From Psilocybe azurescens (taxonomy: Eukaryota; Basidiomycota; Agaricomycetes; Agaricales; Agrocybaceae), in assembly GCA_023853785.1 (NCBI GenBank), contig JAJIRX010000904.1:124001-188000 (forward strand): DNA of 64,000 bases, written 5' to 3'. Of this stretch, positions 20,101 to 45,068 are shown one piece after another (position 1 is the first letter of the stretch; every line of letters begins with the position of its first letter). The position numbers and the translations under genes were made by a program. Under the pieces are notes generated by a model. That model saw only the letters and a program-made list of their open reading frames with translations. It was not told the origin of the DNA and did not search any database.

Positions 20101-22435
20101 TAAATCACTTTGGACAGAGCCACAATGTCTTACCTTAGAAAGGAGAAATTCAATGCCCTCTTTACTATGCATCATTATCTGGAATGAAAGAAGTAGTACA
20201 ACATCTGACAGTGCAAAAACAAAATGTAAATATACCAGGAGGATTATATGGAAATGCACTCCAGGCTGCATGTGCAAATAGCTATGAAGCAATTGTTAAG
20301 TTGCTCTTACAAAATGGAGCAGATGTGAATGCACAAGGAGGATTATGTGGAAATGCACTCTTTGCTGCATGTGCAAATAGCCATGAAGCAATTGTTAAGT
20401 TGCTTTTACAAAATGGAGCAGATGTGAATGGACAAGGAGGATATTATAGAAATGCACTCCATGATGCATGTGAAAATAGCCATGAAGCAATTGTCAAGTT
20501 GCTCTTAGAACATGGAGCAGATGTGAATGCACAAGGAGGATATTATGGAAATGCACTGCAGGCTGCATGTGCAAATAGCCATGAAGCAATTGTCAAGTTG
20601 CTCTTAGAACATGGAGCAGATGTGAATGCACAAGGAGGATATTATGGAAATGCACTGCAGGCTGCATGTGCAAATAGCTATGAAGTAATTGTCAAGTTGC
20701 TCTTAGAACATGGAGCAGATGTGAATGCACAAGAAGGATTAGATGGAAATGCACTCCAGGCTGCATGTGCAAATGGCCATGAAGCAATTGTTAAGTTGCT
20801 CTTACAAAATGGAGCAGATGTGAATGCACAAGGAGAATATTATGGAAATGCACTCTATGCCCCATGTGAAAAGGGCTATGAAGCAATTGTCAAGTTGCTC
20901 TTAGAACATGGAGCAGATGTGAATGCACAAGGAGGATTAGATGGAAATGCACTCTATGCTGCATGTACAAATAGCCATGAAGCAATTGTCAAGTTGCTCT
21001 TAGAACATGGAGCAGATGTGAATGCACAAGGAGGATTTTATGGAAATGCACTCCAGACTGCATGTACAAATAGCCATGAAGCAATTGTCAAGTTGCTCTT
21101 AAAACATGGAGCAGATGTGAATGCACATGGAGGATTATATGGAAATGCACTCCAGGCTACATGTGCAAATAGCCATGAAGCAATTGTCAAGTTGCTCTTA
21201 AAACATGGAGCAGATGTGAATGCACATGGAGGATATTATGGAAATGCACTCCATGAAGCATGTGCAAATAGCCATGAAGCAATTGTCAAGTTACTCTTAG
21301 AACATGGAGCAGAAGTGAATGCACATGGAGGATATTATAGAAATGCACTCCAGGCTGCATGTGCAGAAGTCCATGAAGCAATTGTCAAGTTGCTTTTAGA
21401 ACATGGAGCAGATGTGAATGCACAAGGAGGATATTATAGAAATGCACTCTATGCCCCATGTGCAGATGGCCATGAAGCAATTGTCAAGTTGCTCTTAGAA
21501 CATGGAGCAGATGTGAATGCACAAGGAGAATATTATGGAAATGCACTGCAGGCTGCATGTGCAAATAGCCATGAAGCAATTGTCAAGTTGCTCTTAGAAC
21601 ATGGAGCAGATGTGAATGCACAAGGAGGATATTATAGAAATGCACTCCATGATGCATGTGAAAATAGCCATGAAGCAATTGTCAAGTTGCTCTTAGAACA
21701 TGGAGCAGATGTGAATGCACAAGGAGGATATTATGGAAATGCACTGCAGGCTGCATGTGCAAATAGCCATGAAGCAATTGTCAAGTTGCTCTTTAGAACA
21801 TGGAGCAGATGTGAATGCACAAGGAGGATTAGATGGAAATGCACTCTATGCTGCATGTACAAATAGCCATGAAGCAATTGTCAAGTTGCTCTTAGAACAT
21901 GGAGCAGATGTGAATGCACAAGGAGGATATTATGGAAATGCACTCTATGCCCCATGTGAAAAGGGCTATGAAGCAATTGTCAAGTTGCTGTTAGAACATG
22001 GAACAGATGTGAATGCACCAGGAGGATATTATGGAAATGCACTCTATGCTGCATGTACAAATAGCCATGAAGCAATTGTCAAGTTGCTCTTAGAACATGG
22101 AGCAGATGTGAATGCACAAGGAGGATATTATGGAAATGCACTCTATGCCCCACGTGAAAAGGGCTATGAAGCAATTGTCAAGTTGCTGTTAGAACATGGA
22201 ACAGATGTGAATGCACCAGGAGGATATTATGGAAATGCACTGCAGGCTACATGTGCAAATGGCCATGAAGCAATTGTCAAGTTGCTTTTAGAACATGGAG
22301 CAGATGTGAATGCCCAAGGAGGATTTTATGGAAATGCACTCCAGGCTGCATGTTCCAAAACGTCATGAAGCAATTATTAAACTATTGCAGAAAAATCTAT
22401 CACAGTCCAATAATGACATAACAGATAATATATAA
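17116..22435 (+). pseudogene. NACHT-ankyrin NLR-like protein, C2-like N-terminus, multiple frameshifts
   Basis: Fungal NOD-like receptor. The start is ATG 17116 (MPPDKSLELLRATLN). A C2-like N-terminal part (YSLKLNVDGRKLEST, LKWEWSAENEV, MMKIKLYRRRR) is followed by a helical linker (ASTLGQVLKLTKAIMDQLSK, ELAKTLREMLATAAVV). The NACHT domain begins at WFLEGEQFFKWQESPGFLWV, with Walker A assembled across an intron (KGKGSGKSVL, about 18635-18712), AYFFFDGRDSQ, Walker B VYIVIDALDEC (about 19051-19083) and sensor-like HILVTSRPEED. FRWVALQLHEL and LSHFSVKEYLLA are typical post-NACHT motifs. An ankyrin array follows from 20250. One-base shifts occur near 18813 (A-run), 19484 (A-run), 19703, 19980, 20070, 20145, 21791 (T-run) and 22350 (A-run). 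If all were corrected it would end with TAA at 22433-22435. NLRs of this type mediate non-self recognition and cell death. The shifts may be decay or homopolymer errors. Confidence 0.8.
20250..22363 (+). repeat. Ankyrin-repeat array, about 21 units of 99 bp
   Basis: Tandem 99-bp units, each encoding a 33-residue ankyrin repeat of the form GNAL-QAACANSHEAIVKLL-LEHGADVNAQ-GGYY. I count 21 full units and a partial last one. Units differ at few positions: QN/EH/KH before G, and the residues after C. Unit pairs are nearly identical at DNA level, for example units 3-4 and 15-16. An extra T at about 21791 (GCTCTTTAGAAC instead of GCTCTTAGAAC) breaks unit 16. CG dinucleotides are almost absent. Near-identity suggests recent unequal exchange or gene conversion. 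Confidence 0.93.
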
Positions 22436-23832: not shown

Positions 23833-25008
23833 CAGTACTTTACAGTTTGGTACCAGTCGGAACCGCTTGGACCCAGTCAGAACCGATCGGAACTGGTCAG
23901 AATCCGATCGGAATCCACTGGACCCAGAACCGGTCAGAATTTCATAATGTACTTGTTCAGTGTATAATACAATGCTTAGTCAGCATTACATAATAATTGC
24001 CATAAGCTTATAAATAATGTATTGAAATCACATGATATAGCCTGCTTAGTCAGTATTACATAATATTTTTACATAAGCTCTTAAGTAATCATTCAGTCAC
24101 ATGATATTTGTAATAAATGCGAAATTATTAAATGCACTCAACAGAAATTGAACCAACAGCTTCATATATATTAATTCTATACACATTACCAACTACACTA
24201 TTATTGCTTGTGGTATTATCAACATTTTATGAATTATATACCATTCTTTACAACACCCAATAATATATTCTGGCACTTCCTCCTGAAGCTATACCCACAT
24301 ATTATATATCAAAATGATCAGAAAATTGAGGGCAATGCATCTGTAATTACACCATCATCAGAATATTATGTCAGCATGTTCAATATACAAAATACTGTAA
24401 ATTTGAATATATATAGATATTGTAAACTACATTTTGCAACAAAATAGCACTCTGTTAGCTATATATTAATAGTGTTACAATAATGGAAATTAATAGAATA
24501 CAAAGATTAATTTTATTCAAGACATTTAGATTATATAAGCACAGATTTATATGAAAAATAGGTATTTCTTTACCAGAAATTTTTAAATTTTATATAACTA
24601 TTACATAAACATATTCTCCTCAATTTTACAATTTTAACAATATCAAATTTGTCACAAACTGTTAAGATCTATGTATACTTTTTGTGTTATTACTTGCTGA
24701 GCTGTAAATAGTATGCTGACATAATATGGTTCCGCTTGGTACCACTTGGATTCCACTCGGAATTGGGTCTAATTGGGTTTCAAATTTGATGAATTCCACT
24801 TGGATTCCAGTCGGATTTTGGTCGGACTTGTTAACAGTGGAACTGGTCAGTACTGGTGGTTCCGATCAGAATCCAGTCAGAATCTGGTCGGAAAAATTTG
24901 GACATTTTACTGCTAATTTGGCAGGGACACTGCCAAATAAAATTCCGGTCAGAACTGGTCAGATTCCGACCGGTTCCAATCGGTACCTGTGGGGAGTGTA
25001 AAGACCTC
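23833..25008 (+). mobile_element. TIR element Y (non-autonomous), 8-bp target duplication
   Basis: 1176 bp. The left end is CAGTACTTTACAGTTTGGTA and the right end, inverted, is GAGGTCTTTACACTCCCCAC. It is flanked by GGATCGAA (23825-23832) and GGATCAAA (25009-25016), an 8-bp duplication with one mismatch. The inverted host copy has the uninterrupted site (TTTTGATCCTATC near 37360), so this is an insertion with an empty-site control. The subterminal arrays (23840-23945 and 24725-24990) are made of GGTACC, CAGTCGGAA, GATCGGAAC and CCGGTTCC-like palindromes. A tRNA-like module lies at 24132-24203. No protein is encoded. Confidence 0.82.
24132..24203 (-). repeat. tRNA-like Pol III module, type 2 (in Y)
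   Basis: Minus-strand reading gives an A box TAGTGTAGTTGG and a B box GGTTCAATTTC at tRNA-like spacing. Related copies lie at 31847-31920, 38628-38703 and 44218-44292, all on the minus strand. It reads toward the nearer end of element Y, about 300 bp away. No cloverleaf with a paired acceptor stem is evident, so it is a tRNA-derived promoter rather than a tRNA gene. Confidence 0.65.
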
Positions 25009-26069
25009 GGATCAAAATGAACTGGACAAATTGCTCTGGGATGTGAGAGCGTGGATGGTTGGATAGGCTGGTCTAGCCACTAATGAACGTCTTGAATAAC
25101 TGGAGTGATTGTTGAATTTTGTGCTGAATATTGATAGAGATTGATTGAATGCGTGCTTGGAGTGCTGGACTGAGTACTTGATAACTTGAAATCTTTGCTG
25201 TGAAGAAAGTTGGGGCTTATAACTTCCTTGCATTCCAAGCGATACTAATACATGGTTTATATACCAGAGAACATAGAAAAATATTTAAAAGAGATCAAGC
25301 ATCCAAACTATACTAATCATTCTGTAGAACGACACCCAGTAGTCCCATCTGTCAACTACATACAATAGATTGAAGGCTGACGGAGTTTAGGAGTGAAAAA
25401 TAGAAGGATGAGTAAGTAAGTAACATAGGATGAGTAAGAAGTATAAGCAGGATTATGAAAAGCGAAGTGAGATGAGTAAGAAAGAAGCAAAGCTGAGTAA
25501 GTACAATAAGCAAGAATGACAAAAGAAAGGAAGGATCAATCATATGAAAGTGTCAGACAATAGAAAAGGAGCCAAAATAGCGAACAATTACCATGCTAAT
25601 GAATAGAACCAGTCTATTCATGGCACAGCTCAGTCATCCATTACCAAGACTGCTGAGTGAGACAAAGATTTGCTGCATATGTGGAATCCAGTTAAGGACC
25701 AAATAGTTGTAGATGACCAAATGCTGATGACAATGGTGATATATGATGCTGTGCAGTGCTGTGCATACTAGGATGAATAAGAATGATGTCCAGGAATAAG
25801 CTGCGTATAGCCTTGAGGTTCGAAATAGATAGACGATTGAATCACTGATAGGGAATGTAGCTGATCAAATGGTTGAAGTGGAGATTGAAAGTTGTAATGG
25901 AGATTGAAGTGGACTGTGAATGGGCTTCAACGTTGAATATTGAGGATGTGCTTCAGATAAAAATGCAAAATAATAACCCTGGCTTCTGCATGCAATGGGA
26001 GTCAAGACAGACACTCTAAGCTTATAGATAAATCTCATATCCAATCAAAATTGGTGTATGACACTGGTT

Positions 26070-26640
26070 AAGTCACTTCAAGACAGAAAACAGGTGGACT
26101 GGCTGGACTGTCCAGTCCGTTGGACTTCTGTTGGACTTCCAGTGGACTTCCAGTGGACTCTCAGCACTTAATTAGACCAGATCCAAGAGTGCTCTGTCCA
26201 GTGGAGTCCAGTGGATGTCCAGTGGATGTCCAGTGGACTGTCACTGGTTGAATTGCAGACTTGGGAGGGAGTTAGGGACAGTAGCAGTGTTCTTGGAAGC
26301 TTTGGGAGCCATATTAAGGAAGCTAGGTCACTAGGATAATACTTCAATCTTATCTTTAATTCATGTAACAATGTAATATAATATATTACTATATACTACA
26401 TTATTATCTGACTTTGTGAATTTCACTAAGTCTGACTTTAAATTCACATGGAATGGAATCCAATTGGATTCCAACTGGAATACTTTAATCTTAGCTTAAA
26501 TTTATGTGACAATGTAATATAATATATTAAAAACTATATACTACATGATTATATACAGGTAAAAATAAAATAAAAACATAATAAAAAAGAAACAAAAAAA
26601 GAAAAACAGAAAGAAAGAATGGAAAAAGGGGCAGAGGGTA
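26070..26640 (+). repeat. X-left internal array and AT-rich spacer
   Basis: Part of element X: a second cluster of TCCAGTGGA/TCCGTTGGA palindromes (26100-26240), then AT-rich DNA containing the palindromic GGAATCCAATTGGATTCC (26455-26472) and an A-rich stretch (26560-26630). It is the inverted counterpart of 40965-41525 in X-right. Confidence 0.7.
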
Positions 26641-26984
26641 CATTGGTGGTGTCGTTGTCTGTGTTATTGACATGGTGGTTGGCTGTACCCGTTGTTGTAT
26701 GTGTTGGTGTCGCCGTCAGGTGTTGTCGTCGGCTGTACCCGCTGTGGTACACGTCAGTGTCGTCGTCGGTGTCATTGTTGGTGTCGTCCGTATGTGTTGT
26801 GGTATGTGTTGCTGCTGTCATCGCGTGTTGTGGTCATCCCTGTCATCCTCGCTGTCGCCGTGGTGGTATGTGTTGTTGCGGTCCGTACCCATTGTGGTAC
26901 GTGTCGGTGTCGTCATATGCCGTGCCTGTTCTGGTACCCATTGGTGCCTTTGTCGCGGTGAAAGGGTGTAAACCATTCTGAGCT

Positions 26985-28870
26985 TACAATTCATAGTGAG
27001 ATACAGAGGCCCTTATTTTTGCAATTGTTATCTGTAATAAACTAGTACATTATACTAGTGAAGGGTAGGAGATACGCCAGACTATTAGGCTTTGAGGCTT
27101 TACTTCCTAGTGGGCCAACAAGAGTAATAGACCTTACAAACTAACTAAGGTGTAGTGTGGCCTATTAATCAGTGCTACGAATCAAAGACTACCTTTAGTT
27201 TCCTACACAGCTATCAAAGCAACCCTAGCCGAAGCGTCCGAAGTGATCGCCTGCTCCATTGATCATACTATTAGTCCCATGCAAAGAAGAAACCCTTAAG
27301 AAATGACCTTGGCTCTTACAAAGGGTAACACCCACCAGTGTCTTACCAAGTGATCGCCAAGTGATGAAAACCTTATTAATTAGCAAAGCGATCACTGTGT
27401 CCAGGCCTCACAAAGGCTGTTCACTAAATTAGGCGATCAACCGCTTGGGGATCAGGCATCACTGCACCACACGGGTGATCGCCCACGGACCGAATGTATT
27501 GGCAATTGAAATCTTGTGTACAACTCAGCATATGGCGGTCTAATAGATCCAACTATAAAAACTTGTAATTTGCAATGCAGCTAACGTGAGTGAGCGATCG
27601 CCCAGCCAGCGATCGCCACACGATACTAGAGGTAACTTGCCTCATGATAAGGGCACCTGTTGTTCCAGGGGGTCCTAAACCAATAGCAACTGTGCTGGGG
27701 AACCTTGGGAGGGTTTCCTAGGAAATACACCCCTAAGTAATCTAGTCCCAACATGCCTTAGCCATGAGCCATCTGATAAAATAAGTCGGGTGATCGCTAC
27801 CCAAGAAGGCACTGCCGCATGGACAACCATGTTATCTTCAAATAAGCGCCGTAGCCCAGGCAAACTAGTACTTTCCACTATTATAATTGGTGCAGCAAAG
27901 GCTAGGCAGCACGCCGGTCCATTTCCTTCCTTTTCTCTTAGTCTCTTTCAATTATCACAAGCCAAAGTATCTATTTAGTCTATAAAAACAGTCCTGTATC
28001 TTAGAATAGGAACCAAGTAATTTACACCCCAGATTTGATATCAGAATTTACTCTGAATAAGAATTCTAGTGTTAACACTTGAGGGACTAGTGATTTGTGT
28101 GATAAGAGATCGAACACTGCAGTTCACCTTAAGCAATTAGGCGCTACCTGGTTTTGTGAGCCATCGCCATTGTGATATTCAACGTCAGGTCTATTAGACT
28201 TGATAAGCAGGCTTTTATAAGTCATCCGTGGACTGCCCTGGGGATTGTTAAGTACAGATTGGAACCCTATACGACTAGCGATTGCTCATAGTAACTAGGG
28301 ACGACTGTCAGAGAACTCCAACTGTTCAGGACGTTGCCTATAGTAAGACTGCCCTGGGGATTATTAAGTACGGGTGGGAACCCTATAAAGGCTAGTGATC
28401 GCTCATAGTAACTAGGGACGACTGTCAGAGAAATCCGACTGTTTTCAGGACGTTGCCTATAGTAAACTAAGGACTGTGGACTAGTGTGCCCAGTTGCTTA
28501 TAGGAACCAAGGATCTACTACGTGTTAATATGGGTGATCGCTTATAGTGTTTGACAAAGTTTGAGTTTGGGTTATATAAAGAGAAACTGTCAAGTGTCCC
28601 GTGTACACTCGCCCCCAAAAGCGATCCCCCTGATATTGGTGATCACCCTCATATAAGAGAGATCACCCTTACTATTCAAGTGCCTTGTGTGTACTAGCCT
28701 GTAAAAGCGTTCTCTAGCTACTAGTGATCACCCCAGAGCGATCGTCTAAGTCTGTACTCTGCTAAACTAGTTATTGTAATAAGCCTTACGAGCTTACCCT
28801 CCCAGATCGAACTGATCAATATAAATATTTGATTGGGTGTTGTGTATTGGGCAATTACAAAGTCACCCCG
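26985..28870. mobile_element. GATCGCC-rich element inserted in the minisatellite
   Basis: About 1.9 kb of different composition between TTTGTCGCGG and GTCGTCGCAG, where the inverted X copy is uninterrupted. It contains more than a dozen GTGATCGC / GCGATCAC motifs spread along its length (for example near 27248, 27352, 27428, 27475, 27592, 27790, 28400, 28535, 28640 and 28735). No coding frame longer than about 80 codons is seen. Ends are not certain; GTCGCGG/GTCGCAG may be an imperfect target duplication. Confidence 0.5.
28233..28468. repeat. 116-bp tandem duplication
   Basis: Two consecutive units starting CTGCCCTGGGGATT at 28233 and 28349, both containing CATAGTAACTAGGGACGACT and ending CAGGACGTTGCCTATAGTAA. 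They differ at about ten positions, so this is an older duplication inside the GATCGCC-rich element. Confidence 0.85.
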
Positions 28871-29581
28871 CACTAAACATCTCAGCGGGTCGTCGCAGTC
28901 CGTACCTGTTGCGGTACATGCTGGTGTTGTTGTTATCGGCCCTGTTTTGCTGTCGCCCGTGGTGGTATCCATCGGTGCCGTTGTCGCAGGTTGTCCTTGT
29001 CCTCGCCCCTTGCCTTCCCTCGCCCCTCACGGCCCTTGTCCTCGCCCTCGCCATCCTCATCTTGCCGTCCTTGTCCTCGCATTTTTGTCCTTGCCCTCGC
29101 CGTCCTCATTCTAGCCCCTTGCTGCTGTCCTTGTCCTGGTTTTCGCTGCCGTCCTCGCCCACATTCTGGTCCATGCCAGTGTTTTGGTCCTCGCCATCGC
29201 AATCCTGGTCCTAGCTGTTGTCCTCATGGTCCCTCATGGTCCTCACCCTTGCCCTCGTGGTCCTCGTCGTGATCCTCATCTGTGTCCTTGTTGTTGCTGT
29301 CGCCATTGTCCTTGTCCACGACCTTGTCGTCGCTGTCATCCTTGTCAGTGTGGCCGTCGCAGTTGTTCTTGTCCTCTGTCACGTTGGGTTGGCTCTTGCC
29401 TGGCTCCGACTGACGAGGCGGTGGTAGTGGTGGAAGGAAAAAGGGTTGGGGTCAGAATCAACAACGGACCGACATGGCATCAACATGTCATGCACGTGTT
29501 GTTGTTTGGCTTGTGCCGAGCAGTGCCAAGAATTTTGGCTGCATCAGTATGTATTTAACTAATTTTATTATTTCCATAAGC

Positions 29582-29664
29582 CTTTGTGGCTCAGTTGGTT
29601 TATCCTGCTTGCGTCCAGCATTCTCCGATGCCTGAGTTCAATTCTTGTTTGTGTCTTTTTTTCT
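29582..29664 (+). repeat. tRNA-like Pol III module, type 1 (in X-left)
   Basis: A perfect A box TGGCTCAGTTGG (29587-29598) and a B-box-like GAGTTCAATTC (29634-29644), followed by a T7 run (29656-29662) that would act as a Pol III terminator. The predicted transcript is about 75-80 nt. The same module with a nearby T-run is in X-right (39697-39785, -) and Z (35947-36030, -). The acceptor ends do not pair, so it is tRNA-derived rather than a tRNA. Confidence 0.7.
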
Positions 29665-29722
29665 ATACTAGTATAAATTATAATAAAAGGACAGTAAAGA
29701 CCTCAAACAACCCTCTGCTTGC

Positions 29723-29960
29723 TGTCCATTGGACTTCCATTGGAATTCCGTTGGACTTGTCCGTTGGAATTCCAATGGTCATGTCCAGTGGGATTCCAAT
29801 GGTCATGTCCAGTGGGATTCCAATGGACTTCCGTTGGTTCTGTCTGGTCATTTCCAGTGGACTTTGACTGCTGGTTTGGCATTATTCCAGTGGACAGTCC
29901 GTTGGACTTGTAGTCTGGTCGGACATTCACCAGAATCTCACTGGAATCTCACTGGAAAAT
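29723..29960 (+). repeat. Subterminal palindrome array of X-left, 3' side
   Basis: Tandem and spaced copies of TCCATTGGA, TCCGTTGGA, TCCAATGG and GTCCAGTGG, each a short imperfect palindrome. They are followed by CACCAGAATCTCACTGG units and the GGGGGCCGTGTAAAG terminus at 30020-30034. It matches the array of X-right at 39440-39670 in reverse. Confidence 0.8.
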
Positions 29961-30039
29961 TTCAGCAGTCCTAGACCAGAAAAATTGTCATTCTGAATAT
30001 AGAAAGTCCGACCAAAAATGGGGGCCGTGTAAAGATCTC

Positions 30040-31534
30040 AATTTTCTTGAGGCAATGGCATTCCTGCAAACTCTTCAAGTTTTTGTTGGTAGTGCAAAGA
30101 AGTTGGTCAATAAGAAAAAAGCCATAATCAAACACTTATGCTTCAGTGGGGTTTTGTTAGATATGTTTGGAGATAAGAGCATGTCACAAATCATCACAAA
30201 TTTTGTCTTAGAACTGATCCCAGAGTGCAGCAGGATTTGATGGTGTGCAGTCTCAAAGAATAGTCACAAAAGATTGTGAAGTTGTTGTCCACTTGCCATA
30301 TATCCAGCCTCTTCCAGGCACTGCTTCCACTCATTATCATCCTCTAAAAGTCCTTGATGTATGCAGGCCTCACAAAATGTTTCATACACAGTGCCATTAA
30401 CTGTTTGGAGATCAACAGAAGATGTAGTACCCTTGACACAGGTCTGCAGAGTTCTGAGATAAAAATGCTCTCCTAAACTTGAATAAGCATAGTACATACA
30501 CCCAATTGCAAATTGTTTCTGTTTTGGAGCCCATTTGTGCTGCTTTCCCTTCCAGACAAATTTTGCAGGAAAATGTTGACAAAGAGTATTTCTGGCTTTC
30601 TCATACTGTATATTGGCTTTGAAATAAGCAGTGAGCTTGGTGTTTTTGCCTGCAGTGTGATCCAAAACCTCCTGAACATTTAGTGCCTGGTCTTCATTCC
30701 ATGTAACTATTTGTTGATCAGGCAAATGAACCTGAACGCAAACAATAGGTGGAGGCTCTTGATACATGTGGAAGTGAAAATGTGCCAAAGTCCTTGACAT
30801 GCAGAAACATATTGTGCATCAAGATATAGCTTGACCTCATCTTCACAGCATCCAAACTCCATGGTAATGCAATTATGGCTCTTATAGACATATTTATAGA
30901 TGTATTTGATGGCCTTGATAGAAACAATAGACTCAACATTGATATGACAGTGATATTTCCAGATAAGATAACAGCAGTGAGCAACAACCCAGCAATTATC
31001 ATCCTTTTTCCACCACCTATGTCAAACTCTTTTCCAGTATCACATCTTCTGAGATTTGCATAAGAGTCTTCATTGACAGTGGTCTGATTATGATAAGACT
31101 TGGGAAAATGTTTTAAACATTTTCCATTCTCATGACATTGAGCAGTGGTGTCACCATTGCATGGAGTATGGACCATCAATTTCCTGACCAATTCAAAGAG
31201 TTCAGGCTTTTGCTCTTTATCTATAAATTCAGCTGAAATAAGGCTGTCAACATCTTTAGAGTGCGAAGCTTGTAATCAGAATACAAAAATACAATCATGT
31301 GCATATGTAGAGGCCTCACTTTTGAAACTCAATTGTCCACACATTTGCAATTGCTCTACTCATAATGCCATCTTTAGAAATATCATTGAGCATCTCTTTC
31401 ATTTTGCATGAAAGACTCTGACCACCAAATCAGAACAATCAGAAGACTGTTGTCCAGGAAAAAGTGCCTCTTTGATTTCTGGCTAATTTGGGTTGGCAGT
31501 AGCAGTGATGAATAAATCAGCTCCATGAAAAAAA
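30040..31534 (-). pseudogene. Helitron RepHel fragment (N-terminal and pre-helicase part)
   Basis: Minus-strand protein pieces typical of basidiomycete Helitrons. From right to left: ADLFITATANPNWPEI, DLVVRVFHAKMKEM, LVRKLMVHTPCNGD, CLKHFPKSYHNQT, then (in another frame) HFHMYQEPPPIVCVQVHLPD, NTLCQHFPAKFVWKG, LRTLQTCVKGTTS, FCEACIHQGLLEDDNEWKQC, and finally FAGMPLPQEN at the X boundary. Several frame changes and stops break the reading. The rolling-circle HUH motif is not visible. The helicase half is missing here and a related one is at 42.2-43.6 kb in the opposite orientation. Confidence 0.8.
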
Positions 31535-31930
31535 CTAGTATTTTACACTCCTCCACAAGCTCTGATCAGCACTGCTCTGCACTGTATAGCTCTGAGCAAA
31601 TCTGAGCAGATCTGAACAGAACTATACAGTTCTGCACAGGCCTACTCAGAAATTGTCATATACAGACATAATAAACTGCAAGTGCTTAAGTCACATGATA
31701 TTTATGCTTGGTCAGCATTATACAATAATTTCTTATATAAGCTTTAAATATGCCATTAAAATCATATAATATTTCTGCTTAGTCAGTATTACATAAGTTC
31801 TTATATAATCTATTAAAGTTAATAAATGCAAAATTACAAATACACTCAACAGGAATTGAACCAACAGCTTTATATATATTAATTCTACACATGCTTTACC
31901 AACTACACTATTATTGGGGTTAAACAATCA
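31535..31930 (+). mobile_element. Element W, left end with CTGATCAG-type array
   Basis: Begins CTAGTATTTTACACTCCTCC, the family terminus, followed at 31558-31650 by CTCTGATCAGCACTGCTCTG and GAGCAGATCTGAACAG-like palindromes. A type-2 tRNA-like module (31847-31920, -) lies about 310 bp inside, as in Y. The right end was not located; similar TCTGATCAG/TCTGTTCT words recur to about 32.7 kb. Confidence 0.55.
31847..31920 (-). repeat. tRNA-like Pol III module, type 2 (in W)
   Basis: A box TAGTGTAGTTGG and B box GGTTCAATTCC on the minus strand, followed by TTTT about 30 nt downstream (plus strand AAAATTAC side near 31830). It is the best-preserved B box of the four type-2 copies. Confidence 0.68.
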
Positions 31931-32889
31931 CTGATGTGTGTGATAGCCAGTGACATATTGTGTCACATTATGACCAGACCAATATCTTGAGACATTGAGC
32001 TTGTATTTTATAAACAACCAATTCAAAATATTTTGTGGTATATAATGGAAGATATTAAGTAGTTTCATTGCATGAAGGCATTTTTATTGCAATAAATATA
32101 ATTAAGAACTCAAAAAGGGAAATCAGACTGATTTCCCTACCAAATATAGCACTCTAGATTGCATGAAGAATATCTCAGCAACCACAGCACCATGGTTGGC
32201 GGGCGTATTTTGTTTAAAATTTAACTTTAAACAAACTGATCAGAACAGATTTTTGTTTTTGCTCTCAATGGCAAGTTAGACCCTATATTTAGGCACTTCA
32301 CCTACTTAGACTTGCTAAATTAAAAATCTGTTCTAATCACATTTTAGCAATTAAAATTTAAATCACTTTTTCTCTGGAAATCTAGTCATGAATTGCATAT
32401 TCTATGATGCTATTGTCATTATACAGTTTCAAGCACAAAATCTGTGTAGCACAGCCACTGATCCCGTTCCAAAACAGGCTAAACAGGCCTCAAGGCTTCT
32501 TCATGGCAGCCTTGCATGTGAGGGATGGCCCTGAAATGACTTTTATATACCTAAGGACTGTAGGGAAATGGTCTTTGCACTCAATCCACCATCATACATG
32601 CTTGATTGCCTCTATTTCTTTATTCTGACTGCTTTTCTACTGTTTTTAGTTCAAAAAGCTTTTTATTGGATAGTAAGTCACAAAGTTTGGTATTCTTATA
32701 TGATATTGTGTACTAAAAATACAGATACTTGTTCTGATTTTAGCATCTATTTCTAGGCCATATAGCCAGTCTGAAATTCAGATAACTGATTCTGCAGTAA
32801 CATTTTATTATAATATACTAACATTATAGTTCAATATTATGCATTAGAGCCTGCCCAAGGATATCAGAGATACTCTGTAATGCCTGTTG
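31931..32889. other. AT-rich stretch, probably interior of W and decayed TE
   Basis: No gene supported. Motifs CTGATCAGAACAG (about 32240), AAATCTGTTCT (about 32325) and TTGTTCTGATT (about 32730) echo the W array, so W may extend through here. Frames at 32404-32756 are short. Confidence 0.35.
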
Positions 32890-34240
32890 GAAAAAAGAAT
32901 TGAGCTACTGTTATGGAAAAATTATGAGATGCTCAAGCTGAGAAAAAGGCTGTAACTTCATCTAAGACTGCAGCAGAGGATATCTGGTACAAGTTGAAAG
33001 CTGCAGAGTCCTGTATTCAGGAGATAGAGCTATTGCTTGATCAGAAAACCACTGAGTGTAGTGTCTTGCAGTTACAGCCTGAGAAGTCCAACCAACAGCT
33101 GGCTAAATATGAGGCTGATGCTTCTTTATAGAAGTCAAAACAGAAGGACACGGCACTGCACAGTGTTGGAAGGAGAAAAATAGCCAGTTGGAAAGTCAGG
33201 CTATAACTCTGAAGGAGGCTGAGAAGAAAGCTTCTGCACAGTATCTGAGAGGATCACAACAGTCAGAACAAGTTCTTCCATCACTACAACAAGTGAATGA
33301 TGGCCTTCACAGTGGGCTTTCAAATGCATTCACTAAATGGACATCAAAACTTGCAGACACACATCACAAGCTTAATATCTCACAAAAGAGGCTTGAAATA
33401 CTCCACAAAGAAGCCATCAATCTGTGTAAAACAGTGGAAAACTCTAAAAGTGCACAAGAGAGTGCTATTGCCAAAGTCAAAGCAGAAATCTATCAGAAAT
33501 GATCTGTTCATCATCTGATGAGCAAAAGCATTATTAATGATGAAACCCACAATATTGTACACTTACTTGTCAAGGCAGGCTATTCACATAACTACATTTA
33601 TGAAGTCATAGAAGCTGTTCTCAATTCAGCTGGCATGAAGGCTATTGGAGCCATTAGCAGGCCATCTGTGTCTCACATTCTCTGTGAAGGGTATTTTGCT
33701 GCACAAATTCAACTTGGATATGAGATGAAAAACACAGAGGCTATGACCTTTAGTGCAGATGGAACAGGTCATAGGAGTATCAATTACAACTCCTGCCATG
33801 TTCATCGCCTTGTTGAAGACTATGCATCACCTGAAAGTGATGCAAAAACATGCAACTTGCACTTTTGGAATTCAATTATCCCATGATGGTTCAAGTAAAA
33901 AGCTGTAGCAGACTGGAAAGACACACTCAATAAAGGTCTTGAAATTTTTAACAATAGCCCATTGGGAAAGTGTTCAGATGGTCTATTCAAGCTCACTGAG
34001 CTTTTTATAAAACTCATGGGAACAAATACTGACCACTGTGCAAAGGAAAGAAAGAATGCTCGACTGCTAGAAGATATGAAAGCATGGGCTGTTGACCAAC
34101 ATCTTGGAGAGGAAAAGCTGCTTGATATGTCATTTGAAGAAATTTCAGAACACTTTAAAAAGCAGAAGCAAATATAATTAAAAAAGCAGATGGAAAAAAC
34201 AAATGGAGTAACTTATCAGACATCAAAAAAGCAGAAAAAA
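32890..34240 (+). pseudogene. Transposon-type protein fragment with coiled coil, class unknown
   Basis: A broken plus-strand frame. Upstream is a coiled coil (EKKAVTSSKTAAEDIWYKL, LLLDQKTTECSVL, then LKEAEKKASAQYLRGSQQS). It is followed by INDETHNIVHLLVKAGYS, VLNSAGMKAIGAISRPSVS, AMTFSADGTGHRSINYNS, SPLGKCSDGLFKLTELFIK and GTNTDHCAKERKNARLLEDM. The SADGTxHRSINY and TDHCAKE motifs recur in a high-copy agaricomycete protein I regard as transposon-encoded, but I cannot assign its superfamily. Stops and frame changes occur, and the gene is cut at 34241 by the terminus of element V. Confidence 0.6.
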
Positions 34241-34450
34241 CAGTACTTTACCATCCCCCACACAGTCCATATGGACTCCAGTGGACTCCAGTGGACTTGC
34301 CTATACACTGAGTATAAAGGTAAACAGAGTCCACTGAGTCCAGTGGAGTCCAGTGGACTCTGTGTACTTAATACAGTAAATAAGTAAAATTAAAATAAAT
34401 GAAGTCCAGTGGATTTCACTGTACTCTGTTTACCTGTAAATTATATCAGA
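34241..34450 (+). mobile_element. Element V fragment, CCAGTGGA-type array
   Basis: Terminus CAGTACTTTACCATCCCCCA at 34241-34260, then TCCATATGGACTCCAGTGGA and repeated GTCCAGTGGA/TCCACTG units to about 34440. The opposite end was not found. The same array type appears at 45068-45385. Confidence 0.6.
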
Positions 34451-35946
34451 TTATCAAATTTACTGGATTTCACTGTACTTCATTAACAAAATAAAGAAAA
34501 TTATATAATATTTATCTAATTTAACAAGCTATATACTAACTAGAGTTAATATGTAGTGAAACACTAATTACATAACCACAGAAAGGACATCACACTGTCA
34601 TACACCAATTTTGATTGGATATGAGATTTATCTATAAGCTTAGAGCATTTGTCTTGACTCCTCATTGCATGCAGAAGCCAGGGTTATTATTTTGCATTTT
34701 TATCTGAAGCACATCCCTCAATATTCAACGTCGAAGTCCATTCACAGTCCACTTCAATTTCCATTCCAACTTTCAATCTCCACTTCAACCATTTGATCAG
34801 CTACATTCCCTATCAATGATTCAATCATCTATCTATTTCAAACCTCAAGGCTATGCACAGCTTATTCCTGGACATCATTCCTATCCATCCTAGTATGCAC
34901 AGCACTGCACAGCATCATATATCACCATTGTCATCAGCATTTGGTCATCTACAACTATTTGGTCCTTAACTGGATTCCACATATGCAGCAAATCTTTGTC
35001 TCACTCAGCAGTCTTGGTAATGGATGACTGAGCTGTGCCATGAATAGACTGGTTCTATTCATTAGCATGGTACTTGTTCGCTATTTTGGCTCCTTTTCTA
35101 TTGTCTGACACTTTCATATGATTGATCCTTCCTTCCTTTTGTCATTCTTGCTTATTGTACTTACTCAGCTTTGCTTCTTTCTTACTCATCTCACTTCGCT
35201 TTTCATAATCCTGCTTATACTTCTTACTCATCCTATGTTTACTTACTCATCCTTCTATTTTTCACTCCTAAACTCCGTCAGCCTTCAATCTATTGTATGT
35301 AGTTGACAGATGGGACTACTGGGTGTCGTTCTACAGAATGATTAGTATAGTTTGGATGCTTGATCTCTTTTAAATATTTTTCTATGTTCTCTGGTATATA
35401 AACCATGTAGTAGTATTGCTTGGAATACAAGGAAGTTACAAGCCCCAACTTTCTTCACAGCAAAGATTTCAAGTTATCAAGTACTCAGTTCCAGCACTCC
35501 AGCATGCATTCATTCAATCTCTATCAGTATTCAGCACAAAATTCAACAGTTATTCCAGATCATGAGGTCTTTACCCTCACCCAGGTATTCATGTGGAGTC
35601 CACCGACTCCATGCCGGAGTTAGTGGACTCCATATGGAGTTTAGCAACCTTTTTTTTGGCAGATATGCCAGCCATTTAGGGGTGGAGGCTCCATCTGAGT
35701 CCAGCTGGAATCCACTCATCCTCCATGTGGACCCATGTGAAGGATGTGGAACTCCATCTGGACTCCATGGAACTTCATATGGAGTTCCCCATCCTCCATA
35801 TGGATTTCATGTGGACTTAAGTCATAAATCATGTTTATTAGTATGAATACACAATTTCATGACCAAATTCAAATGGACTCCAGGTGAAGGAATGTCCTGG
35901 ATTTTATTTACATTTTATTGTATTTTATTATATTTTATTGTAGTGT

Positions 35947-36030
35947 AAAAAAGAAAATGCACCAGCAGGAATTGAACACACGCATCCAAGAACACCGAAC
36001 AAGGTGATAAACCAACTGAACCATTAAGGC
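35947..36030 (-). repeat. tRNA-like Pol III module, type 1 (in Z)
   Basis: Minus-strand A box TGGTTCAGTTGG (36012-36023) and B box GTGTTCAATTCC (35968-35979), followed by TTTTCTTTTTT (35957-35947) as terminator. It points toward the left end of Z. Confidence 0.67.
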
Positions 36031-36126
36031 TTTGATAAACATTATAAAATAATTCCATAGCTACTGATTAGCGTAGTTTCTCAGCAATTCTCGGCATATA
36101 TTAAACAATGTCACGTATGTGACCTG

Positions 36127-36680
36127 TTGTTGCCACGTCGGTACGCTGGCCCCACCTTTCTTCCGACCACTACCACCACTACCGCCTCGTCAGTCAGAGC
36201 CAGGCGACAGCCAACCCAACGTGACGGAGGGCGATCACGACCACTAGCGGCCAAGACCACGACCACGACAATGACAACACGGACGCGGACAAGGAGTACT
36301 GCGATGGCGAAGCATGAACAACGGCGACAGCGATGACAAGGGCAACAGCAAGGATGGCGAGGGTGCGGGCCAGACAGTGCAGCAAGACAGTGACAGCAAG
36401 ACAGCAACAGCAAGACAGCAACAGCAAGACAGCAACAGCAAGACAGCAACAGCAAGACAGCAACAGCAAGGGTGAGTGCGAGACGAGGCGGGGCAAGACG
36501 GTGAGGGCGAGGGGTGAGGGGTGAGGGTGAGAGTGAGACAGCGGGTGAGGGTGAGGGGCGAGACGGTGGGGGGCAGGGCGAGGGCAAGACGTCAGGGGCA
36601 AGACAGCGACAGCGAGGACAACGACAATGGACACAGCGGGGTGTAGGATGACACCGCCATACAGCCACATACACACGACA
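36127..36680. repeat. GC-rich minisatellite of Z
   Basis: Trinucleotide-period GC-rich DNA. It contains an 18-bp tandem array (AGCAAGACAGCAACAGCA) at about 36384-36470, repeated about five times, then GGGTGAGGGTGAG-like units to 36590. It is the counterpart of the minisatellites in X but with different unit sequence. Long minus-strand open frames here are artefacts of the period. Confidence 0.75.
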
Positions 36681-38607
36681 TGGCGCACCCCGACGATGAC
36701 CCTCCCGCCCCCCCTTTTTTTAAGGGTTTTCCCCTTTTTTTTGTGTTTTTTTCTTTTTCTTCTTTTTCTTTTACATTTATATGTTTATTTGTTCATCTGA
36801 CCCAGGTATGTACCTCCATCCCATTTTTCTTGTTAAATTTATGTTTTTGTTTTTGTTTTTTAATTTTTAATGATGGATCTCACAGTATGTAACAATGTAA
36901 TAGATAGTTGTTAATATATTATGTTACACTTATATGAATTTACATTAAGATTGAAACATTAATATATTTCAGTTGGAATCCAATTGAATTCTATTCCATG
37001 AAGTTAAAGTTGGAAACTCCAACTGGAGTCCAGGTGGACTCCAGGTGGTGTCTAATTGAACTCCACCTGGACTCTACCTGGACTCCAGTTGGACTTACAT
37101 AAGTGGAATTGTTTGGAGTCCACCTGAGTCCACCTGGAGTCCATCTGAACTCCATCTACCAAAGATAATTTTTGGGACATTTGCATATGTTCCAGATAGA
37201 GTCCATGTGGAGTCCACCACTTTTGTATGGAGTTGGTGGACTCCACATGGAGTTCCTGGGTGGAGGTAAAATACACCAGATCATCAAGACGTCCTTCAAG
37301 GGTTGTAGCAGACAATCCTCCATTCATGCTCTCACATCCCAGAGCAATTTTTCCAGTTCATTTTGATCCTATCATTCTCCAAACCCTTCATTCTCCTCTA
37401 CATCAAGATCCCCAACCCCCATCGCTTCTGTTGCTCCAGAATATTTTATTCAGCAATTTTGGTCTTGTTGTCATCTTCATACATCGCTCCAGACACTCTT
37501 TATCCACCTCTCTACATTGTTTGATTTTTTGGCTGAGGAATATAGCTTAGGTTGTCACCTTCAATCACCCTAGTCATCCCTCATTCACCTCACTGTTCTG
37601 TTTGAGGTTTGGATCAAGAACATCGCACCATCCTTCATCATCTATCACTCCAGGCCGCTCAAGCCATTACTCCATCAGCAGGCTTTACTTCTAGCTTTGC
37701 AGACACTGCAGACTCAATTGAAATGTACTAGGATCAAGACTACATTCTCACTTCTGCCTCCGTTTCAATCTCTACAATTTATCTAGTCATTTGGCCCCTC
37801 CACAGTCATCACTCTTTGTTCACACCATTCTACTCTAATCAAGTCGGGTTGCTTCCTCCCAGTAAACACTCAGGGCAATTTTATATTCCCTCATCCATTC
37901 CTCCTCCTTCATACGTCCCTGCCCTTCTCAGACCACATACATCTTCACAACCTAGTGGCCAAGCCAGCCCTCACTTTAACTCAACAGGGAGAGAGTCATC
38001 TTATCTAGTCTAGACCATTCCTCTCTGGATTGTGTTTTGGTTTTCAATTTATATATCAAATCACACACTATGTAGTTCAGCACACATCCAAAAGGCTCAG
38101 AAATGGCTTAAAGACCATAAAATAGAGCTTGTGGACTGGCCAGCATAATAACTAGATCTCAATCCAATTGAAAAATTGTGGCATATCCTTAAAATGTGTT
38201 TTGTAGAATACAAAAATGCTCCAAAGGATATCCAGGAGTTGTTGAGCAGAATACCCGGAGGAGTGGGAGAAAATACCCAAGGAAGACTATGTGAAATCAA
38301 TCAGTAGTATGTCTAGAAGAGTTTTAAATGTTTTGAAGGCAAAGTTGGGTCACACAAAGTACTAGTTTATATAGATACCCATATTCCAACAGGCTACAAA
38401 GAAACTGTCCAGATGTGTTATTTTTATAAAGTATTTAATAATAATAGATGAACCAAACAAATAAAAACATATTTTATATCCCCTCAAATCTGTGATTCAG
38501 GGCTTTCCAGTACATTTTAAATCATGTAATTTCATGAGGATTACATGGCGTTATGGTCAATTTAAGTTCAATTTCAAAAACATCTGGACAGTTTTTGAGT
38601 CACTGTA

Positions 38608-39356
38608 AATGCAAAATTATAGAATACACTCAACAGGAATTGAACCAACAGCTTTATATATATTAATTCTACACATGCTTTACCAACTACACTATTATTG
38701 CTTGTGGTATTCTTAATATTTTATGAATTATATACTATTCTTTACAACACCCAATAATATATTCTGGCACTTCCTCTGAGGCTATACCCACATATTATAT
38801 ATCGAAATGATCAGAAAATTGAGGGCAATTCACATTTAATTATATCATCATGTGAATATTATGTCAGCACATTCAATATGCAAAATACTGTAAATTTGAA
38901 TATATATGGACATTGTAAACCACTTTTTGCAACAAAATAGCATATTGTCAGCTATATTTTAATAGTGTAGCAATAAAAGAAATTAATAGAATACAAAAAT
39001 CAATTTATATTATATAAACACAGATTTATATGAAAAATAGATATTTCTTTACCAGATATTTTTCAATTTTTATGTAACTATTACATAAACATATTCTTCT
39101 AAATTTTACAATTCTAACAATACCAAATTTGTCACAAACTGATAAGATCTATGTATACTGTTTGTGTTATTGCTTGCTGAGCTGTAAATGGTATGCTGAT
39201 ATAATACAGTTCCACTTGGTACCACTTGGATTCCACTTGGAATTGGGTTTAATTAAGTTTAAAATTTATATGAATTTCACTCAGATTCCAGTTGGATTCC
39301 GGTGAGATTCTGATTGGATTTGGGTCAGACTTGGTAATAATGGGACCACTTGGTAC
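38608..39356 (+). mobile_element. Element Y2, Y-family copy truncated by Tc1 and X
   Basis: Closely matches 24116-24860 of Y: the tRNA-like module (38628-38703, minus), GAATTATATACTATTCTTTA, and the right array from 39209 (GGTACCACTTGGATTCCACT). The Tc1 end (CACTGTA) abuts it at a TA, consistent with Tc1 insertion. It ends where X-right begins (GAGGTCTTTGG at 39357). Confidence 0.75.
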
Positions 39357-39696
39357 GAGGTCTTTGGCCCCCATTTTTGGTCAGACTCTGGTCAGACTCC
39401 GTCGGACTTTCTATATTCAGAATGACAATTTTTCTGGTCTAGGACTGGTGAAATTTTCCGGTGAGATTCCGGTGAGATTCGGTGAAAGTCCGACCGGACT
39501 ACAAGTCCAACGGACTGTCCGGGCGGACTGTCCACTGGAAATGACTGGACAGGACCAACAGAAGTCCAACGGAAGTCCAATGGAAGTCCATCGGAATCCT
39601 ACCGGACATGACCATTGGAATTCCAGCAGACAAGTCCAATGGAATTCCAATGGAAGTCCAACGGATGTCCTTTTATTATAATTTATACTAGTATAG

Positions 39697-39785
39697 AAAA
39701 AAAGACACTAACAAGAATTGAACTCGGGCACCGGAGAATGCCGAACACAAGCGGGATAAACCAACTGAGCCACAAAGGCTTATGG
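39697..39785 (-). repeat. tRNA-like Pol III module, type 1 (in X-right)
   Basis: Minus-strand A box TGGCTCAGTTGG (39761-39772) and B-box-like GAGTTCAATTC (39713-39723), then T7 (39703-39697). It is nearly identical to the X-left copy. Confidence 0.7.
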
Positions 39786-39899
39786 AAAATAATAAAATTA
39801 GTTAAATACATAGTGATGTGGCCGAAATTCTCAGCACTGCTCGGCACGGGACAAACAACAATGCGCGCGTGACATATTGATGCCACGTCGGTCCGTTGT

Positions 39900-40960
39900 T
39901 AATTCCGACCCCAACCCTTTTTCCTTCCACCACCACCACCACCTCGTCGGTCAGAGGCAGGTGAGAGCCAACCCGACACGACAGAGGACAAGAACGACTG
40001 CGACGGACACACCAATGAGGACGAGGACGGGGACGACTGCGACAGCGACAACGAGGACACCGATGAGGGCGCCAACAAGGACGCCAACAAGGACCACGAC
40101 AAGGACCGCAAGGGGGGCGAGGGCGAGGGCGGAGACGGCGGCTAGGATCACGACAATGGTGAGGACCAAGACACCGGCATGGACCAGGACAAGGGCAAGG
40201 ACGGCGGCAAGAGCAAGGAGCGGCGGCGAGGGGCGAGGGGCGACAGCGAGGCGAGCACGGCAGCGAGGACGAGCAACGGCAGCGAGGACAAGCACGGCAG
40301 CGAGGACAAGCACGGCAGCGAGCACGGCAGCGAGGGCGACAGCGAGGGCAAGTACGGCAGCGGGGGCGGAGACGACAGCGAGGCGAGTATGGCAGCGGGG
40401 ATGAGGACAACGGCGAGGGGCGAGTACGGCGGCAAAGAGCGAGGATGGCAGCAAGGACGTGGGCGTGGGCCCGGCAGGGCGAGGACATGGACGGCAAGGG
40501 CGAGGGCGTGGGCGGCAAGGGCGAGGGCGTGGGCGGCAGGAGCGAGGGCGATGGACGGCGAGGATGAGGACACCCTCGCGACGATGGCACCGACGGATAC
40601 CACCACGGCGGCGACAACACGCGTGGCGACACCAACATGATGGCGACACCAACACGTACCACGACAGGTACAGACGCGACGAAGGGACCGGCGGGTGCCA
40701 GGAGAGGCAAGGGCGATGACACCGACCGTACCACAACGGGTACGGACTGCGACGACATGTACCACCACAGCGACAGCGAGAACGACAGGAGACAACCACA
40801 ACGCACGACAACGGCAGCGACACATACCACGACATGTGGACGACACCAACGCATACCACGGCGGGTACGGTCGGCGACAACACCTGACGGTGACACCAAC
40901 GCATACAACGACGGGTATGGCCGACCATGACATTGATAACATGGACGACGGCACCACCAA
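39900..40960 (-). repeat. GC-rich minisatellite of X-right, full length
   Basis: About 1.06 kb of three-base-period DNA with units such as GGCAGCGAGGACAAGCAC (40260-40330), GGGCGTGGGCGGCAAGGGCGA (one base longer than 20, so only its form is noted) near 40500, and ACCACGRCGGGTACGG near 40870. CG is very frequent. Long frames of up to 368 codons exist on the minus strand but are Arg/Pro/Ser-rich, change character with frame, and lack motifs. Confidence 0.75.
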
Positions 40961-41702
40961 TGTACCCTCCGCCCCCTTTTTCTGTTCTTTCTTTCTGTTT
41001 TTCTTTTTTGTTTCTTTTTTATTATGTTTTTATTTTATTTTTACCTGTATATAATCATGTAGTATATAGTTTTTAATATATTATATTACATTGTCACATA
41101 AATTTAAGCTAAGATTAAAGTATTCCAGTTGGAATCCAATTGGATTCCATTCCATGTGAATTTAAAGTCAGACTTAGTGAAATTCACAAAGTCAGATAAT
41201 AATGTAGTATATAGTAATATATTATATTACATTGTTACATGAATTAAAGATAAGATTGAAGTATTATCCTAGTGACCTAGCTTCCTTAATATGGCTCCCA
41301 AAGCTTCCAAGAACACTGCTACTGTCCCTAACTCCCCTCCCAAGTCTGCAATTCAACCAGTGACAGTCCACTGGACATCCACTGGACATCCACTGGACTC
41401 CACTGGACAGAGCACTCTTGGATCTGGTCTAATTAAGTGCTGAGAGTCCACTGGAAGTCCACTGGAAGTCCAACAGAAGTCCAACGGACTGGACAGTCCA
41501 GCCAGTCCACCTGTTTTCTGTCTTGAAGTGACTTGACTGGACTTTGACCAGAATTTGGCCGGACTCTGACTGGACTGGTACCAGAATTTTCTCAAGTCCA
41601 ACGGAATCCATTGGATGTCCAATGGACTGTCCATTGGAATTGGCTGGGTCCAGTGAAAGTCCGTTGGAGTCCAACGGAAAATGGGGGCACTGTAAAGTAC
41701 AC

Positions 41703-43984: not shown

Positions 43985-45068
43985 CCAACAAGCAGGGGTC
44001 AGGGGCACAGCCCCCAAAGCTGTTGACCCTGACATGAAGCACAGGGGGTGAGCAAAGCAAATCCCCCAACACATAGTGGCAGGTCATAAAGCTTGTAATA
44101 TATTGAAATCATATGATATTTATGCTTAGTCATTATTATATAATATTTCTTATATAAGCTCTTAAGTAATCTATTCAGGTCACATGATATTTGTAATAAA
44201 TGTGAAATTATGAAATGTACTCAACAGGAATTGAATCAATGGCTTTATATATATATTAATTCTACACATGCTTTACCAACTACACTATTATTGCTTGTGT
44301 TATTCTCCATATTTAATCACTTATATACTATCAGGGCAACACTAAAATCAGTGTGGCAAGGCCACCAACAAAGACAAGCAAGGTAGTAAGAGCAGAGGAT
44401 GAGGAGAGAGCAGAGAATAGACTTATGAGGAATCAATGATCTGAAGGTTCATACCAATGATAGTGGAAATCCTAAGAGATTGAAGCTGGGGATCTACCTA
44501 CAAAACATGCAGTATTTATACTACTCTAGAGATGACTGACTAAGCAAGATTCCATGATGAGTAATAAGAAAGACCATGATGAATAATAAAGAAGAAAATG
44601 ATGAGTAATAATGAGTAATAATGAGTAATAAAAGGAGTGATGGTGGAAACTTCTGGAATGATCAAAATATTAAGAAAAATAAAAGATATGATGAATGATG
44701 AATGATGAATAATAAGATAATAGATAAAAGATAATCAAGTGATGAAAATAAGAGTAAATAGGGAAACCCTGACAGATGTATACCCTTTTTACAACACCCA
44801 ATAATACATTCTGGCACTTTCTCTCAAGCTATATCCACATATTATATATTAAAATGATCAGAAATTTGAGGGCAATGCACCTGTAATTACATCATCATGT
44901 GAATATTATGTCAGCATTTTCAATATGCACAATACTGCAAATTTGAATATACAAGCTTTATGACCTACCACTATGTGTCTCAGGGGGATTTGCTTTGCTC
45001 ACCCCTCTGTGCTTCATGGCAGGGTCAACAGCTTGCTGGGGGCTGTGTCCCCAGACCCCTGCTTGTCG
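43985..45068. mobile_element. 1.08-kb segment bounded by about 110-bp inverted repeats
   Basis: The left arm 43985-44097 (ACAAGCAGGGGTCAGGGGCA ... GTGGCAGGTCATAAAGCTTG) is inverted at 44951-45068. The arms themselves fold into hairpins (CAGGGGGTGAGCAAAGCAAATCCCCC-like, 44042-44067). The interior contains a type-2 tRNA-like module (44218-44292, minus) and Y-like DNA (44760-44950), plus ATGAGTAATA tandem copies at about 44604-44632. No gene. Confidence 0.7.
44218..44292 (-). repeat. tRNA-like Pol III module, type 2 (fourth copy)
   Basis: A box TAGTGTAGTTGG and a degenerate B box GATTCAATTCC on the minus strand. It is embedded in Y-like sequence between the 110-bp inverted repeats. Confidence 0.6.

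Follow-up and report, generated by a model that had tools for sequence, protein, structure and literature searches.

Outward-directed tRNA-like modules at a constant place within terminal-inverted-repeat transposons of Psilocybe azurescens

Introduction

What keeps a tRNA-like sequence at the same place, and pointing the same way, in different DNA transposons? The question is raised by a stretch of 64,000 nucleotides from the basidiomycete Psilocybe azurescens (contig JAJIRX010000904.1 of assembly GCA_023853785.1, positions 124,001 to 188,000; hereafter the window), in which several short elements with terminal inverted repeats (TIRs) carry a module resembling the A and B boxes of an internal RNA polymerase III (Pol III) promoter near one terminus and directed at it. 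An earlier examination of the window from its letters (the sequence-only reading) took this constancy to suggest that the module is part of the element and might serve it, by making a small RNA or holding chromatin open. Having followed the modules through the genome, we consider it most probable (about 0.6) that they are passenger remnants of tRNA genes or tRNA-derived repeats, which were captured long ago and multiplied together with the elements.

Results and discussion

Position and direction of the modules across the genome

We searched the genome (70.4 Mb in 937 contigs) for exact words and compared each with its reversed form. Modules are named type 1 to type 3 (t1, t2, t3), and termini are named by their first letters as G-end (GAGGTC), C-end (CAGTAC) and H-end (GTGTAC). 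All six words were found in excess: the A boxes of t1, t2 and t3 at 162, 133 and 58 places against 4, 16 and 6 for the reversed words, and the G-end, C-end and H-end words at 328, 157 and 202 places against 12, 17 and 7. The counts by coordinate that follow are restricted to contigs C1-C313, where the word listings overlap.

The t1 A box lies 344-463 bp inside 30 of the 100 exact G-ends, and the t2 A box 306-398 bp inside 25 of the 52 exact C-ends; all 30 and all 25 are directed outward, with no inward case (for t1, within 250-600 bp). Four more pairings of t1 with a G-end fall between -1.5 and +3 kb; these, including an inward one at 2.9 kb, are taken as neighbouring elements. No exact t1 word occurs near C-ends, and 15 of the 40 exact t2 A boxes, most of them unread, have no exact C-end nearby. 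H-ends pair with G-ends in 28 cases (2.0-4.9 kb, mostly 2.1-3.0), of which 18 hold exactly one exact t1 A box, always toward the G-end, and 10 hold none; at 250-600 bp inside the 48 H-ends, neither an outward exact t1 word nor any exact t2 word occurs.

Places ranked by module similarity give a similar picture. Among the top 30 for t1, a terminus follows 388-460 bp after the module start in 28 and none was found in two (L020, L028); among the top 30 for t2, a terminus of C-end type lies 326-444 bp on in 18 (L043 by hand), farther off in 3, and was not found in 9. The 22 of 52 exact t1 words unpaired with an exact G-end comprise 17 t1 modules, three unrelated sequences (L006, L097, L106) and, at L090, two genuine split tRNA genes (scoring 50.9 and 39.8 bits with Rfam), which we read as methionine tRNAs. 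Thirteen of these 17 modules retain a changed yet recognisable terminus ~370-460 bp away, in some cases assessed by eye. L105 is a recombined case; in L093, L094 and L103, which are truncated or lie at the end of a contig, element sequence still follows the module. Altogether, the 47 t1 modules behind exact A boxes show a recognisable terminus in 43 cases, with one recombined and three truncated; none is inverted, and free copies, lying in neither an element nor a fragment of one, were not observed. Homology between copies spans the module, extends into the element to either side and ends at the terminus.

The third type is represented by a complete 2.1-kb element (L111, on C310; 8-bp flanks matching at 7/8), whose module, with A box TGGTGCAGTTGG and B core GTTCAATCC, lies ~420 bp inside the G-end and points outward. 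A 3.6-kb element (L089) bears two outward modules, t3 near the G-end and t2 near the C-end; its flanks are unmatched by eye, and it may be a recombinant. Of 15 t3 words, these two lie next to exact G-ends by coordinate, the other 13 being unread.

The earlier observation, that the module lies near one TIR and reads toward it, is partly confirmed. It holds genome-wide; in the window, W and the 44.2-kb segment are fragments with no terminus. Random positions and orientations were sought among other copies and none was found in the 30 t1 and 25 t2 cases, which supports the view that the module is a part of its element, as opposed to a freely inserting short interspersed element (SINE). That contrast is correct as regards mobility, the module apparently not inserting on its own at present, and has no bearing on function.

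We posit that a tRNA gene or tRNA-derived repeat would have been taken up by the ancestors of related short non-autonomous TIR elements, in at most three captures (t1, t2 and t3), and later copied by DNA transposition together with the element. Such copying would yield both the constant position (immediately interior to the subterminal repeats, with one terminus ~300-460 bp away) and the outward direction. Since the copies descend from few founders, the constant geometry is neither independent evidence nor proof of function; even three separate captures would share one orientation with a chance of ~1/4. The earlier reasoning from this constancy is therefore unsupported in the form given: constancy only shows that the element was copied once the module was already there.

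Box architecture and tRNA ancestry

The 48 distinct t1 modules of our box census, mostly picked by module similarity or A box, have a perfect A box in 46 cases and a perfect B core in 41. The distance from A to B box is 49 in 38 of 48 t1 and 35 of 38 t2 modules. The tRNA covariance model detects t2 in 8 of 10 loci, with three scoring at least the gathering threshold of 29 bits (L112 at 38.1; L049 and L051 at 30.1), five more at 24-28 bits, and no match in L087 and L053; L112 was included since a genome tRNA scan, which scored 63 of 3033 candidates, had scored it. By these scores t2 is tRNA-derived. Its modules keep 14 to 18 of 21 base pairs, with no two-sided compensation in the pair counts. 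For t3 no covariance match was found in L111 (E<=5) or L089 (E<=10). In the window, ARAGORN found no tRNA and Rfam at its gathering threshold found nothing. Among the module loci searched, the best Rfam match, WsnRNA46 (38.4 bits, under its gathering threshold of 65.3), was set aside as chance arising from inverted repeats. Folding of five predicted RNAs gave z of -1.8 to +0.5, leaving structure unsupported.

Outside the boxes, the alignment of the t1 module of the F1b subfamily with t2 scores above every one of 500 shuffles, with z=4.4 and 4.2; other pairs give z of 0 to 2.4 (t1-t2), 0.9 to 2.9 (t1-t3) and 1.1 (t2-t3; 14 pairs tested). A common ancestor of t1 and t2 is possible, not proven.

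Approximate A box words are expected at random in the window, and one might suppose that AT-rich transposon DNA merely resembles tRNA by chance. This is refuted by the enrichment of the exact t1 and t2 words, 8 to 40 fold over the reversed words genome-wide. The spacing and the t2 loci that pass the gathering threshold also speak against it.

Descent with the element or separate insertion

A tRNA-derived SINE could instead have been inserted separately into each element family, maybe favouring the AT-rich stretch by the subterminal repeats. The A and B boxes, the tRNA ancestry of t2, the many copies and the AT-rich tails after the module (in X-right, repeats like ATAATAAAAT) are shared with tRNA-derived SINEs, and in relatives the slot of the module is filled by a different segment of 200-260 bp. 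Unlike SINEs, however, the module was never seen free among the 47 t1 cases, and no duplication flanking it was seen, by eye only and with no program test. Moreover, the inner flanks are alignable across the t1 subfamilies (0.58-0.86 identity vs ~0.49 shuffled), with the modules still recognisable, which points to descent. We regard separate insertion as improbable.

Passenger or working part?

The principal alternative to passenger status is that the module is under selection as a working part of the element: TFIIIC bound at the A and B boxes might keep the adjacent subterminal transposase-binding region open or halt spreading methylation; alternatively, the element might be aided by a tRNA-like small RNA. 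We hold this to be doubtful, yet several observations speak for it. The outer flanks of t1 elements, 60-220 bp past the B core, are of three mutually unalignable kinds (F1a, F1b and F1c/F1d), with identity between kinds at ~0.5, the shuffled level, and 0.72-0.77 between F1c and F1d; the module was kept beside all three. When F1a is compared with F1b, identity is 0.96 in the B box, ~0.6 in the inner flanks and at the shuffled level in the outer flank. A precedent for a boundary role exists in fission yeast, where heterochromatin boundaries are formed with the help of TFIIIC sites (B boxes), as an excerpt of PMC4502379 has it. A more specific version, in which TIR transposons retain a tRNA-derived Pol III promoter and its own terminator beside the subterminal transposase-binding zone through several terminus replacements, as a TFIIIC insulator or for a ~85-nt element RNA, appears unlikely.

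Certain results weigh against passenger status, or against our account of the modules' origin. In a pooled test of 24 t1 copies (F1a, F1c and F1d, with CpG columns excluded and the two F1b copies left out), the B box and T run vary in 3/38 columns vs 253/931 elsewhere (p=0.004), which hints at more than a passenger; p is 0.006 against the inner flank and A-B interval only, and 0.02 for the B box alone. The way in which most modules of the box census were picked is a further weakness. No tRNA covariance match was obtained for t1 in 9 loci at E<=5 or in X-left at E<=10, and no source tRNA of the modules was identified. Finally, the five module-free ends, from which we judge that transposition apparently does not require the module, are not demonstrated to be complete elements.

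These five come from a sample chosen by terminus only, namely the 20 G-ends that come first when contigs are taken in order (L069-L088). Nine have t1 at 315-446 bp and one has t3. In three F2 elements t2 is situated toward the opposite end; the t2 of L084 is interrupted, and L069 shows a t1-like module at a distance of 1.4 kb. L071, L074, L076, L081 and L085 have no module. These last keep the F1a terminal region (~74-90% identity in pairwise matches), and L071 also part of the F1a inner body; the t1 slot of ~250 bp is occupied by another AT-rich segment in which no A or B boxes were seen. Their presence at five places suggests that mobility is independent of the module. The segment in the slot (~200-260 bp) is itself conserved, as though the slot could exchange its contents.

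The pooled result comes with cautions: the exact A box selected 15 of the 24 copies, and misaligned flanks can raise variation. The t1 tail past the T run, which is not promoter, is likewise quiet, with 11/92 columns variable. For t2, four copies picked by G-end only give 1/21 variable columns in the boxes vs 49/269 in the flanks (p=0.09), with p=0.19 for the whole module and p=0.57 for the boxes of the three F2a copies alone. Earlier t2 values of p=0.003 (boxes) and 1e-6 (whole module) were replaced, as that sample contained a copy with an insertion adjoining the module and the window's element Y, and a conservation profile from copies picked by module similarity was dropped as evidence of selection owing to that choice.

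The B-box C is required by TFIIIC. It is lost in F1d, whose B box reads GTTTGATTC or GTTTAATTT and is only 0.78 identical to that of F1a, no better than the tail. A run of at least five T follows the B core within 35 nt in 46 of the 48 t1 modules (vs 1% of flank control windows), as against none of 38 t2 modules. Of the window's t1 copies, for which a T6-T7 run directly past the B box had been noted, X-left and Z each have T7, and X-right has T4 and then T6. The loss of the C in F1d, the lack of a T5 run in t2, the presence of the module at only one end of F1 elements and its absence from related ends argue against a working part.

Aligning copies, as the sequence-only reading had proposed, thus weakly supports selection on the t1 boxes and does not show it on those of t2. 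It is plausible that F1a to F1c have retained a working promoter, which is unproven overall. For the passenger reading that we prefer, the Pol III promoter would probably be weakly active in t1 and decaying in t2; t1 copies may still be able to bind TFIIIC, with a predicted RNA of ~85 nt. A role through a small RNA or open chromatin was neither demonstrated nor refuted. If the modules are active, the elements would disseminate TFIIIC sites or small tRNA-like genes through DNA transposition instead of retroposition, and would make it possible to examine whether transposon ends are protected from silencing by TFIIIC sites. Passive modules would furnish a clear case of constant geometry mimicking function.

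Element class and known systems

Among 13 elements, the 8-bp flanks agree at 7-8 of 8 positions in five, against 0.08 expected, and at 2-4 of 8 in the other eight; agreement peaks sharply at 8 bp. Zisupton elements make 8-bp target duplications, and hAT elements usually do (excerpt of PMC12730594). The duplications fit Zisupton (KDZ) or hAT alike. KDZ matches number 170 and hAT-domain matches 20 genome-wide; among the matches listed on C1-C313, no KDZ match was judged to lie within a paired element and no hAT match clearly does so. No transposase was found in the fetched elements, which were read only in part. A hAT-domain match at C8:84344 (C8:82470-84511), 1.9 kb inside a C-end, is a candidate autonomous partner. 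The segment C169:45597-54159 was rejected as such a partner: it is an F2 element with large nested repeats and no stop-free stretch >173 codons (no family search was made).

With their imperfect TIRs, 8-bp duplications, subterminal repeats and size of ~1.1-3 kb, the elements resemble fungal non-autonomous TIR elements or miniature inverted-repeat transposable elements mobilised by Zisupton/KDZ or hAT transposases, from which they differ in carrying a remnant of a type-2 Pol III promoter at a fixed place. The likeness to TFIIIC sites and tRNA boundary (IR) elements of Schizosaccharomyces pombe consists in B box cores near a domain edge; unlike these, the present modules lie inside mobile elements and are known from sequence alone. 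We know of no DNA transposons with Pol III promoters as standing parts. No description of tRNA modules in TIR elements appeared among the titles and abstract openings of the open-access literature searched, and a term search of the main text of the Laccaria transposable element survey (PMC3411680) did not find the word tRNA.

Elements and other features of the window

Table 1. Elements, modules and termini in the window (positions counted from its first letter)
Feature	Position	Strand	Details
Element Y (F2a family, 1.18 kb)	23833..25008	-	left C-end (CAGTAC), right G-end (GAGGTC); 8-bp target duplication TTTGATCC/TTCGATCC, 7/8 bases matching
t2 module of Y	24133..24211	-	A box 24189-24200, B core 24145-24153; directed at C-end, A box start to terminus 368 bp
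t1 module of X-left	29575..29668	+	A box 29587-29598, B core 29636-29644, T7 29656-29662; terminus at 30039, 453 bp distant
Truncated second G-end-like terminus ACAGTAAAGACCTC	29691..29704	+	~35 bp past X-left module
t2 module of Y2	31841..31917	-	A box 31899-31910, B core 31853-31861; terminus ~31538, 373 bp away
Element X-right (F1b, 1.71 kb)	35564..37276	-	exact 8-bp target duplication CAGATCAT
t1 module of X-right (F1b subtype)	35945..36032	-	A box 36012-36023, B core 35969-35977; T4 at 35954-35957, then T6
W, inner F2a fragment without termini	38606..39298	-	t2 module: A box 38683-38694, B core 38637-38645
Element Z (F1a, 2.35 kb)	39357..41702	-	left G-end, right H-end (GTGTAC), presumably paired; flanking 8-mers mismatched
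t1 module of Z	39691..39784	-	A box 39761-39772, B core 39715-39723, T7 39697-39703; 416 bp to terminus
t2 module in terminus-less fragment	44216..44294	-	A box 44276-44287, B core 44228-44236 (ATTCAATTC, one change)

The truncated terminus past the X-left module lies within a longer element end; the identical junction recurs in L082 and L105, with a variant form in L016, and it perhaps marks a nested or deletion-shortened element. The bodies of the F1 elements contain GC-rich tandem repeats with 18-bp and 14-bp units and several open frames (40244-40459 and 36380-36470).

Elsewhere in the genome, a repeated tRNA-like sequence (L113-L117; C280:25262, C529:29504, C403:4129, C427:15881 and C569:607229) matches RF00005 at 33-40 bits. 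Its copies have near-identical flanks, and by our reading the downstream flank of L113 is Copia polyprotein-like; this is perhaps another tRNA within a mobile element.

Three further features of the window deserve mention. A match to the hAT dimerisation domain at 52941-53108 (C779:176941-177108) lies near open reading frames (ORFs) at 49.6-51.7 kb, with none of the above terminus words beside it. A PIF1-like helicase ORF at 42249-42779 (Pfam PF05970, E=3e-47) begins beside an element terminus at ~42240 and is perhaps a Helitron fragment. Lastly, a 99-bp tandem repeat of 21.6 copies at 20237-22375 encodes what we read as ankyrin-like repeats.
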